Part shown: piece by piece, positions 25,314 through 32,434 of the stretch
Numbering within the stretch: position 1 is the first letter of the stretch
Layout: each line of letters opens with the position of its first letter
Assembly: GCF_004001325.1 (NCBI RefSeq)
Contig: NZ_AP018722.1
Coordinates: 186,001 to 250,000, forward strand
DNA: 64,000 bases
Reading direction: 5' to 3'
From: Thiomicrorhabdus aquaedulcis
GTDB lineage: Bacteria; Pseudomonadota; Gammaproteobacteria; Thiomicrospirales; Thiomicrospiraceae
Translations under genes and position numbers: made by a program
The notes under the pieces: model-generated
What the model was told of the DNA's origin: nothing
The model's input: the letters and a program-made list of their open reading frames with translations, nothing else
Databases searched by the model: none

Positions 25314-25900
25314 TTACAACGATCCCTTGGTGGATGGCATTTTACCTGCCATTCGTTCGTCGGGCGATAAGGCCATGCGTAAAGCGCGGCCAAACGCTTT
25401 AAAAATAGTTTCGGCTTGGTGGTGCGAGTTGTGGCCACGCAGGCAATCAATGTGCACGGTGGCTTTGGCGTGATTGACAAAGCCTTGAAAAAATTCAAAC
25501 ACCAATTCGGTTTCAAATTGACCAATGGTTTCACGGGTAAAGTCGGCATTAAAGACCAGGCCTGGTCGGCCTGAAAGGTCGATGACCACGCGCGACAGCG
25601 CTTCATCTAACGGCACATAAGCGTGACCATAACGGGTAATGCCTTTTTTATCGCCAACGGCTTGATCAATTGCTTGACCCAACGTAATGCCTACGTCTTC
25701 GACGGTGTGGTGGTCGTCAATGTGATTGTCGCCTAAGGCCGTAATGTCCAGGTCAATCATGCCGTGGCGGGCAATTTGGTCTAGCATGTGTTCAAAAAAG
25801 GTACACCGGTTTTTAGGTTGGCTATGCCTTCACCGTCTAGGTTTACTGCAATTTTAATTTGGGTTTCAAGGGTGTTGCGCTCAATGGTTGCCGTACGCAT
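25314..25900 (-). pseudogene. hisB: Imidazoleglycerol-phosphate dehydratase, one base short
   Basis: Sixth step of histidine synthesis. The ATG at 25900 opens [16 protein letters not shown] and reads normally to TGVP, then shifts frame; the rest resumes as [16 protein letters not shown] with metal-binding DDHHTVED and GHNSHHQAE. The break is in a run of six A's at 25794-25799 (T on the coding strand) where seven would give PFFEHMLDQ. The span is 587 bp, and one added base gives 195 aa, the normal length of monofunctional HisB. Because the flanking his genes are intact and the downstream frame is well conserved, an assembly base-call error is the likeliest cause. Confidence 0.9.
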
Positions 25901-26195
25901 AAGAGAGTCCTTAGAGTTAAAGTCCGCCTATAATAACTGAAAAGATGGGTTATTTATATCGCGAGTTTGCGTAAGTTAAGGTTGCATTAAGCTGTTTAGG
26001 ATTAGTGAGAAGGGATAAGTGGAGGCTAAGTAGGGCATATAAGCAGTCGCTGGATGTTAATGATAAGGAAAAGTGATATGCCCTCATAAATAATTTTAGG
26101 CATGCAATAAGGGCATTCTTTTGGGATAATGCGAAGGATTTTTTAAACCGTCTGACTTTTTATTAAGGTTTTAGAAATTTAATCCATGTGATTAC
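25901..26195. other. Intergenic region between his and cco operons
   Basis: Divergent promoter region; AT-rich, no gene seen. The his operon promoter must lie at the left side, but no clear box is recognised. The FNR box and promoter of the oxidase operon lie to the right. Confidence 0.5.
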
Positions 26196-26209
26196 TTGAT
26201 ATGGATCAA
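26196..26209. promoter_or_regulatory. FNR/Anr-type box upstream of ccoN
   Basis: TTGATATGGATCAA matches the FNR consensus TTGAT-N4-ATCAA exactly. Its centre is 61.5 bases before the transcription start predicted from the TATAAT at 26252, the class I activator position. This implies induction of the cbb3 oxidase at low oxygen. Confidence 0.88.
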
Positions 26210-26345: not shown

Positions 26346-27776
26346 ATGGATACTATCGCAAAACCACAATATGACAATGGTGTGGTTCAGTATTTAACAG
26401 TGGGCGCAGTGGTTTTCTTGGTGTTAGGTACGCTTATGGGTACTTATGCAGCAGCAGAACTTGCTTGGCCTGTGTTAAATTTTGATATCGCGGAAATCAC
26501 TTTTGCACGTTTACGTGTAATGCATACAAATACTGTTATTTATGCATTTGGTGGTATGACGTTAATGGCAACAGCTTTTTACACCGTACAACGTACAAAC
26601 GGCGTAAGACTTTGGAGCAACACAATGGCTTGGGCAACAGCAATCCTGTTTACCGTTGGGCTATTGGGTGTAGTTGTAACCCTTTCTTTGGGTATGACTA
26701 CTGGTAAAGAATACCATGAACAAATTTGGCCTTTAGCCATTGCTGTTGCATTGGTTTGGACGTTATATACGTTTAATTTTATGATGACCATTGCGTCACG
26801 TAATAAAGAAACGCATCCAAACGTATACGTTTCAAACTGGTTCTTTATGGGTATGATGATTGCAATCACATATCTGTATGTAGTAAACGGTTTGGCGATT
26901 CCAGTATCATTGTTTCAATCGTACTCGCTGTTTGCGGGTGTGCAAGATGCCATGATTCAATGGTGGTGGGGGCATAACGCGGTAGGTTTCTTCCTAACGG
27001 CGGGTTTCCTTGCAATCATGTACTATTTCGTACCTAAGCAAGCGCAACGTCCAATTTACTCGTACCGTTTATCGGTTATTCACTTTTGGGCTTTAATGTT
27101 TGGTTATGTCTGGTTAGGTGCTCACCACCTTCAGTACACAGCATTGCCAGATTGGACCGGTTCATTAGGCGCAGTAATCTCTTTAGCGATGATTATCCCT
27201 TCATGGGGTGGTGCACTAAACGGAATGCTAACGCTTTCAGGCGCTTGGGATAGATTACGTACTGATTATATTTTGCGTTTCTTGATCATCTCTTTGGCTT
27301 TCTATGCAATGTCAACGTTTGAAGGGCCAGTAATGGCAGCGAAAACAGTAAACGCCTTGTCGCATTATACCGATTGGACTGTTGGTCACGTTCACTCAGG
27401 TGCACTAGGATGGGTTGCAATGGTGTCTATTGGTGCCATTTATCACATGATTATGAAACTGTGGAAAACAGAAATGTATTCTATGCAGTTGATTAACTTC
27501 CATTTCTGGTTGGCAACAATTGGTACGGTGTTTTACATTGTGGCTATGTGGGTATCTGGAATTATGCAGGGTCTAATGTGGCGTGCATACGACGAATACG
27601 GAACATTAGCCTATACGTTCGCTGAATCTGTTTCAGCAATGCACCCATATTACGCAATGCGTACGTTAGGTGGATTCTTATTCTTTACGGGTGCGGTTGT
27701 CATGTTATACAACGTGGTAATGACTATTCGTATGGCGAATGCAAAATCGACTCAAGCAGTTGAAGCGCGCGCATAA
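26346..27776 (+). CDS. ccoN: Cytochrome cbb3 oxidase subunit I
   Basis: Catalytic haem-copper subunit that reduces oxygen with high affinity. About twelve membrane helices across 476 aa. Metal-ligand histidines occur in RVMHTNTVIYAFGG, IQWWWGHNAVGFFLT, YVWLGAHHLQYT and WTVGHVHSGALGW, all typical of C-type oxidases. ATG at 26346 preceded by AGGGGAA. The operon continues with ccoO, Q and P. It contains no copy of the CAGGCCTG palindrome. Confidence 0.97.
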   Translation: MDTIAKPQYDNGVVQYLTVGAVVFLVLGTLMGTYAAAELAWPVLNFDIAEITFARLRVMHTNTVIYAFGGMTLMATAFYTVQRTNGVRLWSNTMAWATAILFTVGLLGVVVTLSLGMTTGKEYHEQIWPLAIAVALVWTLYTFNFMMTIASRNKETHPNVYVSNWFFMGMMIAITYLYVVNGLAIPVSLFQSYSLFAGVQDAMIQWWWGHNAVGFFLTAGFLAIMYYFVPKQAQRPIYSYRLSVIHFWALMFGYVWLGAHHLQYTALPDWTGSLGAVISLAMIIPSWGGALNGMLTLSGAWDRLRTDYILRFLIISLAFYAMSTFEGPVMAAKTVNALSHYTDWTVGHVHSGALGWVAMVSIGAIYHMIMKLWKTEMYSMQLINFHFWLATIGTVFYIVAMWVSGIMQGLMWRAYDEYGTLAYTFAESVSAMHPYYAMRTLGGFLFFTGAVVMLYNVVMTIRMANAKSTQAVEARA

Positions 27777-27855: not shown

Positions 27856-28686
27856 ATGGCTGATAATCAAGCACCAAAAAATATCCAGGATGGTCTAGAG
27901 CGCAATATATTTGCAATGTTTCTAGCCACTGCACTGGCGGTATCCATTGCGGGTATTGTTGAAATCGTACCGTTGTTTTATCTAAAATCTGCGGTTGATT
28001 ACACGGAACAAACCGATAAATACGGTAACGTAAAAAATGAAAAATTTCCTGAATTAGTTTGGGAACGTACCTTTACCGAAGATGAAAATGGCAAGTTAGT
28101 TTCAGACAAGAAACTTTACAGCCAGGCCAAAAATGGTAAATGGCAAGTTGCAGACTGGAAGCCAGGTGATGGGGTTCGTCCTTATACGCCTTTAGAGTTG
28201 GCTGGTCGTGATTTGTATTTGCGCGAAGGTTGCTATATTTGTCACTCACAAATGATTCGTCCTTTCCGTGATGAGCGTGAACGTTACGGTCATTATTCAT
28301 TGGCAACAGAATCTATGTACGACCACCCAATGCAATGGGGTTCTAAACGTACCGGCCCAGATTTGGCTCGTTTAGGCGGTAAATATTCTGATGAATGGCA
28401 GGTGTTACATTTGTTACGTCCTCAAAGTATGATTCCAGAATCGGTTATGCCTGCGTATCCGTGGCTGGCTGAAACCCTTGTTTCAAAAGACTTCTTTGGT
28501 ACTGAGCGTGACATGAAAGTTCGCTTATCTGTAATGCGTACGCTAGGCGTGCCTTACACCGATGAAGAAATTGAAAATGCAAACAAAGCCATCGAGGGTT
28601 ACACCGAAATGGATGCCATGGTGGCGTATCTTCAAGTTTTAGGAACGATGGTTAAGCTGGATGACAGCAAAACATATCGTCAATAA
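27856..28686 (+). CDS. ccoO: Cytochrome cbb3 oxidase subunit II (mono-haem cytochrome c)
   Basis: Membrane-anchored c-type cytochrome that passes electrons to CcoN. One N-terminal helix, haem motif CYICH in [25 protein letters not shown], and later Met ligand region MPAYPWL. 276 aa, longer than the usual 200-250 because of a hydrophilic insertion of about 45 residues after the anchor ([20 protein letters not shown] and on). It is preceded by GAGGAGCA and ends 3 bp before ccoQ. Confidence 0.95.
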
Positions 28687-28689
28687 CCT

Positions 28690-28872
28690 ATGAGCAAACT
28701 TGAACAATATTTCAGTACTGATTGGGCGGCATTAACCACCCATGACTGGGCTGGGTTAATCGTTACAGTATTGGTGTTTTTAGGCATGCTCATCACGTTT
28801 GCTTTGGCGTTACGCCCAAGCAAGCGTAAAGAGATGGAGCAAGAAAAATATAAAATACTGAATGATGACTAA
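28690..28872 (+). CDS. ccoQ: cbb3 oxidase subunit IV (CcoQ)
   Basis: 60-aa protein with a single membrane helix (WAGLIVTVLVFLGMLITFAL) and a charged tail (RPSKRKEMEQEKYK). CcoQ proteins stabilise the oxidase complex. Identified by size, topology and location between ccoO and ccoP. Confidence 0.88.
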   Translation: MSKLEQYFSTDWAALTTHDWAGLIVTVLVFLGMLITFALALRPSKRKEMEQEKYKILNDD

Positions 28873-28892: not shown

Positions 28893-29815
28893 ATGGCACA
28901 ACACAATCCGTGGCCGGATGAAGGCAATACAGGCCACATTTGGGATGAAGACTTACGTGAATTAGACAACCCACCTCCATTATGGTGGATGCTGTCTTTT
29001 TACTTCGGTTTTATAATGATTATTTTTACACGCTTTACTACCCAACCATTCCATTAACAGATGGAACGGGTGAGTTTACGAAAGGTATGGCTGGATGGAC
29101 TCAGGTTGAAGAGTACCAAGATGACTTTACCGTTCTAAAAAACTGGCGTGTTTCTAAGTTTGCAGATAAAGAAGAAAAGCTGGCGGCAATGTCAGTTGAA
29201 GACATTCTTAAAGACGAAGAGTTAAAATCTTACGCTGTTGCAACTTCTAAGGTTTTGTTTGGTGATTACTGTGCAGGCTGTCATGCCGCTGGTGGCGCGG
29301 GCAATCCTAATTTTCCAATCTTGGCAGACGATGACTGGCTATGGGGTGGAAGTGTTAAGCAGATTGAAACAGCAATGGTTAATGGACGAATTGGTAACAT
29401 GCCTGCTAAAGGGATGATGGGCAATTTGTCTGAGCAAGAGATGCAAGATGTAACCGATTATGTAATGGCGTTGTCTGAAGGCAAAGGCGAAGATGTCGCG
29501 TTTACTGCAGGTAAAGCGGCTTACACTAAAGGTATGTGTTTAGCATGTCATGGTCCTGCTGGTAAGCCTTTGGCTCCTACTGGATCGGCTAACTTGACAG
29601 ACCAAGTTTGGCGTTTTACAGGCCTTCCAGGTGCTGACTTGCGTACTGAAGCTTATAACACCATTGCATATGGCGTAAATGTTAAGAAAGATGGTCAGTA
29701 TATTGCGGGTACACGTCAAGCATACATGCCTTCTTTTAAAGAGCGTTTGCCTGATGCTGATGTCAACATTAAACGCTTAGCAATTTATGTTCACGCGTTA
29801 GGTGGCGGTCAGTAA
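28893..29815 (+). pseudogene. ccoP: cbb3 oxidase di-haem subunit III, one base short
   Basis: Di-haem cytochrome c that receives electrons for the oxidase. The true start is ATG 28893 behind GAGGAG, giving MAQHNPWPDEGNTGHIWDED and LDNPPPLWWMLSFYFGF, the normal CcoP N-terminus and membrane anchor. Near T5 at 29023-29027 the frame shifts; the rest continues in another frame from LYYPTIPLTDGTGEFTKG through two haem sites, CAGCH (GDYCAGCHAAGG) and CLACH (GMCLACHGPAG). 923 bp; one more T gives 307 aa, the usual size. Loss of this gene would disable the complete oxidase, so a sequence error is likely. Confidence 0.9.
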
Positions 29816-29850: not shown

Positions 29851-29879
29851 AAAGGGAGAGCAGAAATGTTCTCCTTTTT
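29851..29879 (+). terminator. Terminator after ccoP
   Basis: AAAGGGAGA pairs with TCTCCTTTT (one G-U) around a 10-base loop and runs into a T tract. Confidence 0.7.
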
Positions 29880-29900: not shown

Positions 29901-29914
29901 TTGATTTTAATCAA
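29901..29914. promoter_or_regulatory. Second FNR/Anr-type box, before a small gene
   Basis: TTGATTTTAATCAA is an exact FNR consensus, 17 bp before the ATG at 29931 and next to its ribosome site. Too close for simple activation of a promoter downstream of it; repression or a fortuitous hairpin are alternatives. Confidence 0.6.
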
Positions 29915-29930
29915 GTTTGAGGAGTATGAA

Positions 29931-30071
29931 ATGAACGAATTAAATAATGATTTTGTATTGTGGATTTCTTTAGGTGCCTTGGTACTGTCCATCGTTTCAT
30001 TAGTCGCTTTTGCTTGGAAAGCCACTCGTGGTATTGAAGGTCTTGAAAAAGACGATAAATCAAAAGAATAA
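29931..30071 (+). CDS. Small single-helix membrane protein after ccoNOQP
   Basis: 46-aa protein: short acidic N-terminus (MNELNNDF), one membrane helix (VLWISLGALVLSIVSLVAFA) and a charged tail (EGLEKDDKSKE). GAGGAG lies six bases before the ATG. Position directly after the oxidase genes and before ccoG, and its size, recall the small accessory subunits CcoQ and CcoM, but I do not recognise a named family. Separate FNR box and terminators on both sides suggest its own transcript. Confidence 0.7.
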   Translation: MNELNNDFVLWISLGALVLSIVSLVAFAWKATRGIEGLEKDDKSKE

Positions 30072-30101
30072 AATAAGTGGTAAACACATTATTTTTATAA
30101 G

Positions 30102-30136
30102 ATAGGCTTAACCAAGGTTAGGCCTATTTTTTTTTA
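30102..30136 (+). terminator. Strong terminator after the small membrane protein gene
   Basis: ATAGGCTTAACC pairs with GGTTAGGCCTAT (one G-U) around two A's, followed by nine or more T's. Confidence 0.9.
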
Positions 30137-30223: not shown

Positions 30224-31711
30224 ATGTCAGCTGAAATGAATGAGTCGAAAGATAAGAAAGATTTATATCGCGACAATCATCAAACGGGTTCGGTACTCGA
30301 TACCATGAACACCAGTAACAAAAATCTTGAGAACATTGGTGTAGAAATTTTACCGATTCATACAGGTGGTACTGTTCATGCAAAGCGCATGCCTGGTATG
30401 TTTCGTACGGTTAAATGGATAACGGCCTCGTTGTGGATTGCATTATTTTTAGGCCCTTATTTGCGATGGGATGGCCATCAGGCTTTGTTATTTGATTTAG
30501 GTAATCGTCAGTTTCATATTTTTGGTCTAACCATCTTGCCGCAAGACATTTGGATTCTAGCAATGATACTGCTGTTTTTTTCATTGTTATTAGCGGCCTC
30601 AACAGCTATTGCTGGGCGTTTATGGTGCGGGTATTTTTGCTTTCATACCGTTTGGACTGATGTGTTTACTTGGATTGAAGAAAAGTTAGAAGGGCAACCT
30701 AATAAGCGTATTAAGCTTGATGAATCACCGATGAGTCTTGAAAAGATTAAGGTGAAAATTCCAAAACATATTATTTGGGGTTTTATTGGTTTTATGACCG
30801 CCTTTAGCTTTGTCGCCTATTTTGTAGACGCTATTGATTTATGGACGCGATTATTTGCATTTGAATGGAGTTCGACCGAAACATCTATTATTTTGATTTT
30901 AGGCGCGGCTACCTACTTTTTTGCTGGTATTTTGCGTGAGCAGACCTGTATTGGTTTTTGTCCTTACGCACGTATTCAGGGTGCAATGATTGATACTCAA
31001 ACGGTTGTTCCAACATACGACGTTGAAAGAGGTGAGCCGCGTGGGCGTATGAAGCGAGCTAAACCTGGTGAAGAAGTTGAAGCATTGGGTGATTGTATTG
31101 ATTGTAATTTATGTGTAGCAGTTTGCCCAACGGGGGTGGATATTCGCCGTGGCCAGCAATTTGGCTGTATTACCTGCGGTTTGTGCATTGACGCTTGCGA
31201 TTCGGTAATGGAAAAAATTAAAAAACCTAAGGGTTTAATTCGCTATGCTTCATTGGCGGAATTTGGTGGACTTGTGTTGCCACCCGTTTGGAAACGTCCA
31301 AGGGTATTGGTATACACAGGCATTATGACTTTTGCCGCTTTGGCTATGGTATGGGGATTATTAACGATGTCGCCCATTGATGTTAAAGCGTTGCATGAAC
31401 GTTCACCGTTGTATGTACAGATGAGTGATGGCAATATTCAAAATAAATGGACTATTAAAGTCGTAAATAAAAGCAATTTTCCGATGTTGGCTGAGATAAC
31501 GGTTGAAGGCCCTGAAGGAATGACTTTTGTCGCAGATAAAGTCATTAATGTATCACCAGGCAATGTTGGAGCAACCACTTTATTGGTGCGAATTCCTAAA
31601 AAATCATTAAAAGACAGTCGGATTCCTCTGAAAATTAATGTTGTTGACTTGAATAATCCGAGTATTCGTTCAACTTATGATAGTGATTTTTTAGGACCAC
31701 CAGTACCTTAA
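30224..31711 (+). CDS. ccoG: Cytochrome oxidase accessory protein CcoG (FixG/RdxA)
   Basis: Membrane iron-sulfur protein that helps deliver reduced copper for cbb3 assembly. Four to five membrane helices in the first 250 residues; CIGFCPYARIQG; two ferredoxin-type clusters CIDCNLCVAVCPTGVDIRRG and CITCGLCIDACDSVM near residues 291-325; one more helix and an Ig-like C-terminal domain. 495 aa, normal length. AAGGA precedes the ATG. Its position between ccoNOQP and ccoHIS follows the classic order. Confidence 0.95.
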   Translation: MSAEMNESKDKKDLYRDNHQTGSVLDTMNTSNKNLENIGVEILPIHTGGTVHAKRMPGMFRTVKWITASLWIALFLGPYLRWDGHQALLFDLGNRQFHIFGLTILPQDIWILAMILLFFSLLLAASTAIAGRLWCGYFCFHTVWTDVFTWIEEKLEGQPNKRIKLDESPMSLEKIKVKIPKHIIWGFIGFMTAFSFVAYFVDAIDLWTRLFAFEWSSTETSIILILGAATYFFAGILREQTCIGFCPYARIQGAMIDTQTVVPTYDVERGEPRGRMKRAKPGEEVEALGDCIDCNLCVAVCPTGVDIRRGQQFGCITCGLCIDACDSVMEKIKKPKGLIRYASLAEFGGLVLPPVWKRPRVLVYTGIMTFAALAMVWGLLTMSPIDVKALHERSPLYVQMSDGNIQNKWTIKVVNKSNFPMLAEITVEGPEGMTFVADKVINVSPGNVGATTLLVRIPKKSLKDSRIPLKINVVDLNNPSIRSTYDSDFLGPPVP

Positions 31712-31883: not shown

Positions 31884-32434
31884 ATGGCATTAGAAGATAT
31901 TTCGCAGTTTGAAACCAAGCCCAAAAAAGATATGCGTGATTGGAGCGTAGCGTGGAAAAACCCATTTATTATTGGTTGGGCGGTTATCCTAACGGTTGTG
32001 TTAACCGTTAACTTTTTTATGGTAAGTATGGCTATTGTCACAAATCCAGGCCTGGTCATTGATGATTTTACGAACAGGGTAAAAACATGGATGAGCTCCT
32101 GGCTAAAAACAAAAAAATGGAAGAGATGGGTTGGCAGTTAAAAACTGAACTGCCGGTTTTGCTAGAAGGTAAAGCAGACACCGTGACCTTGCAAGTTTTA
32201 GACAAACAAAATCAGCCTATGGCCGTAGACAATGCTATTTTGTATTTTTACCGCCCATCTGACCGCAAGCTGGATGGTCAATTGCAATTAACGGCGGTAG
32301 AAGGTGAGTTGGGCGCATTTAGCGCACCGATTAGCTTTCCGTTAAAAGGTAAGTGGGATTTAATAATGGAGGTTACCCAGGGCGAGTTAGTCTTTAATAT
32401 GGGGCGTTCTATTATGGTTAAAGATCCAGAGTAA
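31884..32434 (+). pseudogene. ccoH: cbb3 assembly protein CcoH (FixH-like), one base short
   Basis: FixH-type protein needed for stable cbb3 assembly. The N-terminal part has the membrane helix ([20 protein letters not shown]) and [14 protein letters not shown]; then the frame breaks at T4 32066-32069. With one added T the text runs on as [20 protein letters not shown], the expected FixH join, into a beta-rich periplasmic domain. 551 bp; 183 aa when repaired. The palindrome variant at 32045 encodes NPGL just before the break. Probably a sequence error, since its partner genes are intact. Confidence 0.85.

Follow-up and report, generated by a model that had tools for sequence, protein, structure and literature searches.

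A conserved small membrane protein gene between ccoP and ccoG in Thiomicrorhabdus and allies, and its putative link to the cbb3 oxidase and to FNR

Small single-helix proteins of cbb3 oxidases and the gene after ccoP

The cbb3 oxidases serve bacterial respiration at very low oxygen. The genes encoding their small subunits are so short that they are readily overlooked. Several small proteins with a single membrane helix have nevertheless been described around these enzymes. CcoM is presented as a subunit of 36 aa (PMC10433244), with a single helix and required for stability, not for activity (PMC8267372). The same source describes the ccoX and ccoY genes of Campylobacter as small single-helix genes located downstream of ccoP, essential and important for the oxidase activity (PMC8267372). 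Furthermore, CcoH and CcoS are termed assembly factors in another work, where the helix of the Rhodobacter CcoH is tentatively placed beside helix 9 of CcoN (PMC7876108).

The window analysed in this work is a 64-kb stretch (64,000 nucleotides) of the Thiomicrorhabdus aquaedulcis genome. Its forward strand carries ccoN (26346..27776, TIGR00780 over its cut-off), ccoO (27856..28686, TIGR00781 over its cut-off), a ccoQ-like gene (28690..28872, with a FixQ match below its cut-off), ccoP (28893..29815) and ccoG (30224..31711, TIGR02745 over its cut-off). A weakly FixH-like gene, a gene for a heavy-metal P-type ATPase in the position of ccoI, and ccoS are found downstream of ccoG. Between ccoP and ccoG, the original prediction had placed a small membrane protein gene, and this is borne out by the reading of the ORF, the family matches, the synteny, the structural model and the pN/pS values: the gene lies at 29931..30071 on the + strand and encodes a single-helix membrane protein of 46 aa (MNELNNDFVLWISLGALVLSIVSLVAFAWKATRGIEGLEKDDKSKE). 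The full open frame extends from 29901 to 30071 (56 aa), with a TTG start inside the FNR box that is discussed below. The conserved start is the ATG at 29931, which gives the 46-aa product beginning with MNELNNDF. By direct reading, the clear ribosome site proposed for it is the AGGAG at 29920..29924 (+ strand), located 6 bases 5' of this ATG.

Regarding the quality of the assembly, ccoP is present in two frames (28893-29054 and 28982-29815), the frame changing close to a run of T at about 29025. The loci of the relatives L031-L059 read through in one frame, and the split is likely an assembly error rather than a real lesion. The ccoH-like gene (31884-32434) and hisB (25314-25950, minus strand) also appear frame-split, and the presence of three split genes within approximately 8 kb suggests that the assembly is prone to indels. 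The small ORF is intact despite these neighbouring frame breaks, and it aligns without gaps to the conserved part of its relatives.

The single membrane helix expected for this protein was recovered in the AlphaFold2 model, which was obtained with 28 sequences (own and from named relatives) and shows one helix spanning residues 3-44, with a mean pLDDT of 83.7 and values of 96 and 95 for residues 11-20 and 21-30, respectively. The motif L-N-[NS]-D-x-V-L-W is conserved near the start of the protein, and the members of the family have about 39-54 residues. The acidic residues (D/E) before the helix and K30/R33 after it suggest, following the positive-inside rule, that the start is outside and the tail inside. 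The protein would then consist of a short periplasmic start, a single helix across the membrane and, following K30/R33, an acidic tail in the cytoplasm.

CcoM of Pseudomonas stutzeri is likewise very small, with one helix preceded by a short start that is acidic and followed by basic residues. It is a subunit of a cbb3 oxidase, and the window gene is linked to cbb3 genes. Similar small proteins with a single helix are CcoX (DUF4006) and CcoY in Campylobacter jejuni, whose genes come immediately after ccoNOQP, but these belong to a different lineage, and the next genes there are ccoZ and ccoH instead of ccoG. Moreover, neither the window protein (at E <= 1) nor the 19 members of the A2 profile described below (at E <= 0.1) matched the Pfam model DUF4006. 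CcoQ/FixQ, a subunit of the cbb3 oxidase, is a small single-helix protein too, but a separate ccoQ-like gene is already present in the locus and FixQ (PF05545) did not match the 46-aa protein. No description of the small protein appeared among the best-ranked matches of a literature search that covered mainly freely accessible papers.

Considering these data together with those presented in the following sections, the small protein is probably a single-helix accessory subunit of the cbb3 oxidase, whose gene would be uncoupled from ccoP by a terminator and repressed by FNR in Thiomicrorhabdus and some of its allies. By analogy with CcoM in Pseudomonas, it would pack onto the CcoNOP core, with a stabilising role.

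Conservation, selection and relation to known families

Family, genus and class refer here to preset genome sets, the class set being composed of 369 genomes. The protein search matched the small protein in 59 of the 62 family genomes and in 7/7 genera, and the order-level search yielded again 62 genomes, with 59 hits. The gene is located directly after ccoP in 59/59 family loci; ccoG comes next in 58 of them, and a contig end in the remaining one. The three misses correspond to incomplete cco loci, since the contig with ccoN stops in ccoO in one genome (G033) and in ccoN in another (G040), and there is no ccoN match in the third (G034). Hence, the conservation in relatives on which the original prediction made the gene depend was found, and always beside ccoP.

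Uncorrected pN/pS, calculated against each of the 58 relatives over the initial 40 codons, ranged from 0.07 to 0.75 with a median of 0.33 and no value reaching 1, and from 0.07 to 0.35 in the 25 relatives of lowest pN; these values are rough because synonymous sites are near saturation. The 26-sequence alignment, made of rows with Met at the start, shows no variation at L4, N5 and V9 and almost none at D7, L10, W11 and K30. In six of the 59 family members the codon aligned with the first position is not a start codon, and an ATG is present one codon earlier. The small ORF is under purifying selection and it is a real gene. The ORF is short and no curated family covers it, as could be expected of a chance ORF or of a leader peptide without protein function. 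This explanation retains practically no probability and was ruled out by the conservation at the protein level, the pN/pS below 1 in 58/58 comparisons and the synteny, which is fixed over seven genera and beyond.

To look beyond the family, a first profile of 26 family sequences was run on the 369 class genomes, giving 26 extra-family matches at E <= 0.01. Fourteen of them, including the eight best, were in the slot between ccoP and ccoG; the 12 located outside, of which six are proteins of about 416-435 residues, were dropped as chance matches. The second profile (A2) had 19 rows, 13 of which were outgroup members from the ccoP-ccoG slot. Its list at E <= 0.1 spanned 94/369 genomes and was mostly chance according to frame length, so counting was restricted to E <= 1e-4. 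At this threshold there were 40 matches, four in the family and 36 outside it, the latter in 33/369 class genomes. The slot between ccoP and ccoG is filled by 32 of the 36 extra-family matches (in G094 within a longer frame), and by 18 of the 22 that were absent from the A2 building set; as the family is short, the extra-family E-values lean on this synteny. Among the off-slot exceptions, the match in G139 lies at a contig end upstream, with no ccoG found downstream. Second copies of the small protein away from cco were observed in G185, G197 and G404 (L224, L337 and L340). The profiles of the family and the outgroup, both gathered by the same search chain, aligned with a probability of 98.6%.

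A ccoP match at E <= 1e-10 is present in 251/369 class genomes (over the cut-off in 197), and the small gene was found in a minority of the class genomes having ccoP. Of the 189 named ccoP loci found, 80 were considered. Judged by ccoP, Thiomicrorhabdus and allies are the nearest named relatives, and the 30 nearest loci (L031-L060) all have the small gene. The other 50 (L061-L110), mostly from other Gammaproteobacteria and from Alphaproteobacteria, showed no match in the slot. Its lack in these 50 distant loci and its presence in a minority of the class indicate that the small protein is not a universal subunit. The Variovorax stretch that was inspected has no gene between ccoP and ccoG, and the one from Halomonas comes without any annotated features. 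No plasmid was matched by the 46-aa protein.

As for curated families, the window protein had no Pfam or NCBIfam match over the cut-off. Among the 19 A2 members the best E-values were 0.00035 in Pfam (20.9 bits for PF01034, under the 25.2 of its cut-off) and 0.0027 in NCBIfam. The searches against solved structures, with the single protein and with two profiles, gave nothing relevant by sequence. The family would be a new one among the small single-helix accessory proteins of respiratory oxidases. As a conserved syntenic family that lacks a curated Pfam or NCBIfam model, it is a candidate for a subunit missed so far in sulfur oxidisers and in scattered members of the class.

The original prediction had proposed a small accessory subunit similar to CcoM, and it is worth considering whether the protein is a true, highly diverged CcoM ortholog. 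Both share the size class, the single helix, the predicted orientation and a D-x-V near the start. CcoM was identified as chain N of 5djq and as NCBIfam NF041600, whose cut-off is 40 bits. This model gave no match for the window protein at E <= 10, and the best of seven other members tested reached 15.6 bits. When compared by hhalign with a CcoM profile of only three rows, the family obtained a probability of 14% and the outgroup 29%, with an E-value of 0.0006 that belongs to a single comparison; the outgroup result counts for orthology and that of the family against it. CcoM is over the cut-off in 2/369 class genomes (G222 and G423), and neither has an A2 match at E <= 0.1, a distribution that would suit orthologs, although two genomes are too few to establish exclusion. 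Furthermore, the queries with ccoN, O, P, G, I and S found none of these genes in the 3.1 kb that surround ccoM at L227 or at L228, while the window gene is next to ccoP in 59/59 family loci. No significant sequence relation between CcoM and the small protein emerged, and orthology appears unlikely. The resemblance to CcoM fits in the sense of a protein that works like it, while the membership in the CcoM family fails. Nothing specific points to the other function that had been suggested, a regulator of the oxidase.

DUF3149 (PF11346) also comprises single-helix proteins of about 40 residues. With a cut-off of 23.2 bits, it did not match the window protein or the 19 A2 members at E <= 0.1, and it scored 13.4 bits for one of five other outgroup members tested. 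DUF3149 proteins fill the ccoP-ccoG slot in two of the seven over-cut-off matches from 21 chosen genomes (L346 in G207 and L348 in G184). The other five have no cco gene found in the locus, unlike the small gene. In the 30 best-scoring ccoP loci (L277-L306), two have a short gene in the gap that matches at E < 1e-3, both DUF3149-like (in one Pfam comparison one exceeds the cut-off and the other falls just short of it, in another both exceed it), and several others carry in the slot a different, longer membrane ORF with no meaningful match. No mention of DUF3149 was found in the literature searched.

Terminator-like hairpins and the link to the ccoNOQP unit

The small gene had been described as framed by two terminators. 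Terminator-like hairpins were indeed found by the hairpin scan on both sides, after ccoP (29851..29878, + strand) and after the small gene, before ccoG (30099..30130, + strand), and many relatives keep hairpins in both places. It should be considered that the scan of 7 kb detected 11 sites versus 6.6 in shuffles, so any single hairpin is weak evidence. In the family, a hairpin is located upstream of the small gene in 41/59 loci (11.4 expected from shuffles), or in 36/59 with a stricter scan, and downstream, before ccoG, in 44/58 (12.6 expected from shuffles). The frequency of the upstream hairpin implies that co-transcription with ccoNOQP is not general. In 8/59 family loci the gap is of 60 bases or less and no upstream terminator was seen, and read-through or co-transcription is likely there.

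Regarding the outgroup, 23 of the 32 slot loci were scanned, and the hairpin appears after the small gene in 17/23 and before it in 4/23, counts that have no shuffled control. This position, mostly after the small gene, ties the gene to the ccoNOQP unit. The simplest history would be that of a fifth gene of ccoNOQP that was later uncoupled in part of the family. According to it, the small gene would ancestrally be the last one of the ccoNOQP unit, and in Thiomicrorhabdus and some allies a terminator would split it from ccoP, leaving it with its own promoter.

The anatomy of the locus also bears on whether the protein could be a biogenesis factor, as CcoS and CcoG are, in contact with the oxidase solely while it is being assembled, and not a stable subunit. 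The small gene adjoins ccoG, whose product acts in assembly, and the family often has a hairpin between the small gene and ccoP too. Moreover, small single-helix proteins of cbb3 oxidases can be assembly factors, as reported for CcoH and CcoS (PMC7876108). Against this, a hairpin usually parts the small gene from ccoG, both in the outgroup and in the family, and in the outgroup the gene is rarely separated from ccoP. The window protein also contains no Cys or His that could carry a metal, though some outgroup members have them. On balance, a role restricted to assembly seems unlikely, and the accessory subunit is the reading followed below.

FNR boxes and possible oxygen control

An exact FNR box (TTGATTTTAATCAA, 29901..29914, without assigned strand) is present ahead of the start, as had been predicted, with 16 bases between the box and the ATG and its centre about 23 bases before it. 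A second exact box (26196..26209, likewise without strand) is located 150 bases before ccoN. The FNR consensus TTGATNNNNATCAA and a gene for an FNR-like protein are both present in the genome. This gene (L307) is the only Crp/FNR-type HTH match of the genome over the cut-off, and its product has CLNCGLQKIC, a later Cys and ETVSR; these cysteines and the ETVSR are as in the FNR of E. coli.

The number of boxes in the window is not unusual, with five having at most one mismatch where 2.7 are expected and 16/100 shuffles reaching five. In the whole genome there are 17 box places versus one for the reversed control pattern. In the gaps between ccoP and the small gene the boxes exceed chance: 21 of the 59 contain an exact one, and the number rises to 26 when one mismatch is allowed, versus 0.025% and 0.8% of the shuffled gaps, respectively, in a control of single-base shuffles applied to gaps that are related and not independent. 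The remaining 33/59 family gaps have no box with one mismatch or less, which indicates that FNR control is not general. Concerning ccoN, the 27 readable upstream regions of the named relatives contain no exact box, 19 boxes with one mismatch, seven with two and one with three; 1.8% of the shuffled upstream regions have a box with at most one mismatch and 21% with at most two. The ccoN box of the window is itself exact.

Two layouts were distinguished in the gaps. The proximal one, found in 21 loci, places the box at -26 to -34, in 17/29 loci of the genus of the window (g1) and 4/11 of g3. The distal one, with five loci, places it at -106 to -122, past the ccoP stop but ahead of the terminator, in 4/4 loci of g5 (Sulfurivirga) and 1/4 of g2. 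In these five loci (L113, L119, L120, L121 and L122, from g5 and one g2 genome) the box comes right after the ccoP stop. The distal box lies at about the distance expected of an activator site if a promoter were located within the ccoP terminator, the transcript then starting near the terminator end.

The proximal boxes are exact in 18/21 loci, with nearly fixed arms, TTGAT/ATCAA, and a four-base spacer and flanks that vary. No compensatory changes in the arms were seen by eye in the 21 loci, and in all of them, the window included, a GGAG can be read by eye between the box and the ATG. No conserved -35 or -10 was established. The box overlies the few bases where the transcript of the small gene, if it has its own, must begin, and an FNR site over or next to a transcript start normally represses. 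Furthermore, an activator acting at -41.5 from the proximal box would start transcription inside the ORF, so it cannot activate the small gene; class II activation of this gene by FNR was rejected for this reason. Repression by the proximal box is thus the likeliest and simplest reading, in agreement with the original remark, in which the box position fits either repression or a promoter hidden in the ccoP terminator. The FNR form active at low oxygen would then repress the small gene and activate ccoN from the box located 150 bases upstream.

A class II promoter inside the ORF that would drive ccoG was also considered but found no support, as no well-placed -10-like hexamer was seen by eye, and the terminator-like hairpin before ccoG in 44/58 loci opposes it as well.

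It is conceivable, if less favoured, that the palindrome, rather than being a repressor site for the small gene, forms a hairpin in the RNA, blocks read-through or serves as the activator site of another transcript, the small gene being expressed by read-through from ccoNOQP. The bases flanking the palindrome can pair in 16/21 proximal loci, the short gaps free of terminators mentioned above would permit read-through, and five relatives have the box at a distance resembling that of an activator. However, the nearly fixed arms, together with the variable spacer and the lack of compensatory changes, favour a protein site over an RNA hairpin, and a promoter at -41.5 would start inside the ORF.

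Following the repression reading, FNR might change the subunit make-up of one cbb3 oxidase with oxygen in Thiomicrorhabdus and allies, with CcoNOQP up and the small subunit off, although this is quite unlikely as things stand. As oxygen falls, the imperfect ccoN box would raise CcoNOQP and the perfect proximal box would shut the small subunit, the ccoP terminator and the box forming together the switch that uncoupled an ancestral operon subunit. If true, this would retune the enzyme without a second isozyme. The locus may offer a natural case in which a terminator and an oxygen-sensor site have uncoupled the expression of a subunit from that of its complex.

Finally, another place in the genome of the window (L316, G000:C1:989047) has an exact FNR box with its centre 21 bases before an ATG, a close layout like that of the small gene. 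The ORF that follows looks by eye like an FAD-linked glycolate oxidase, and a divergent aminotransferase-like ORF lies beside it.
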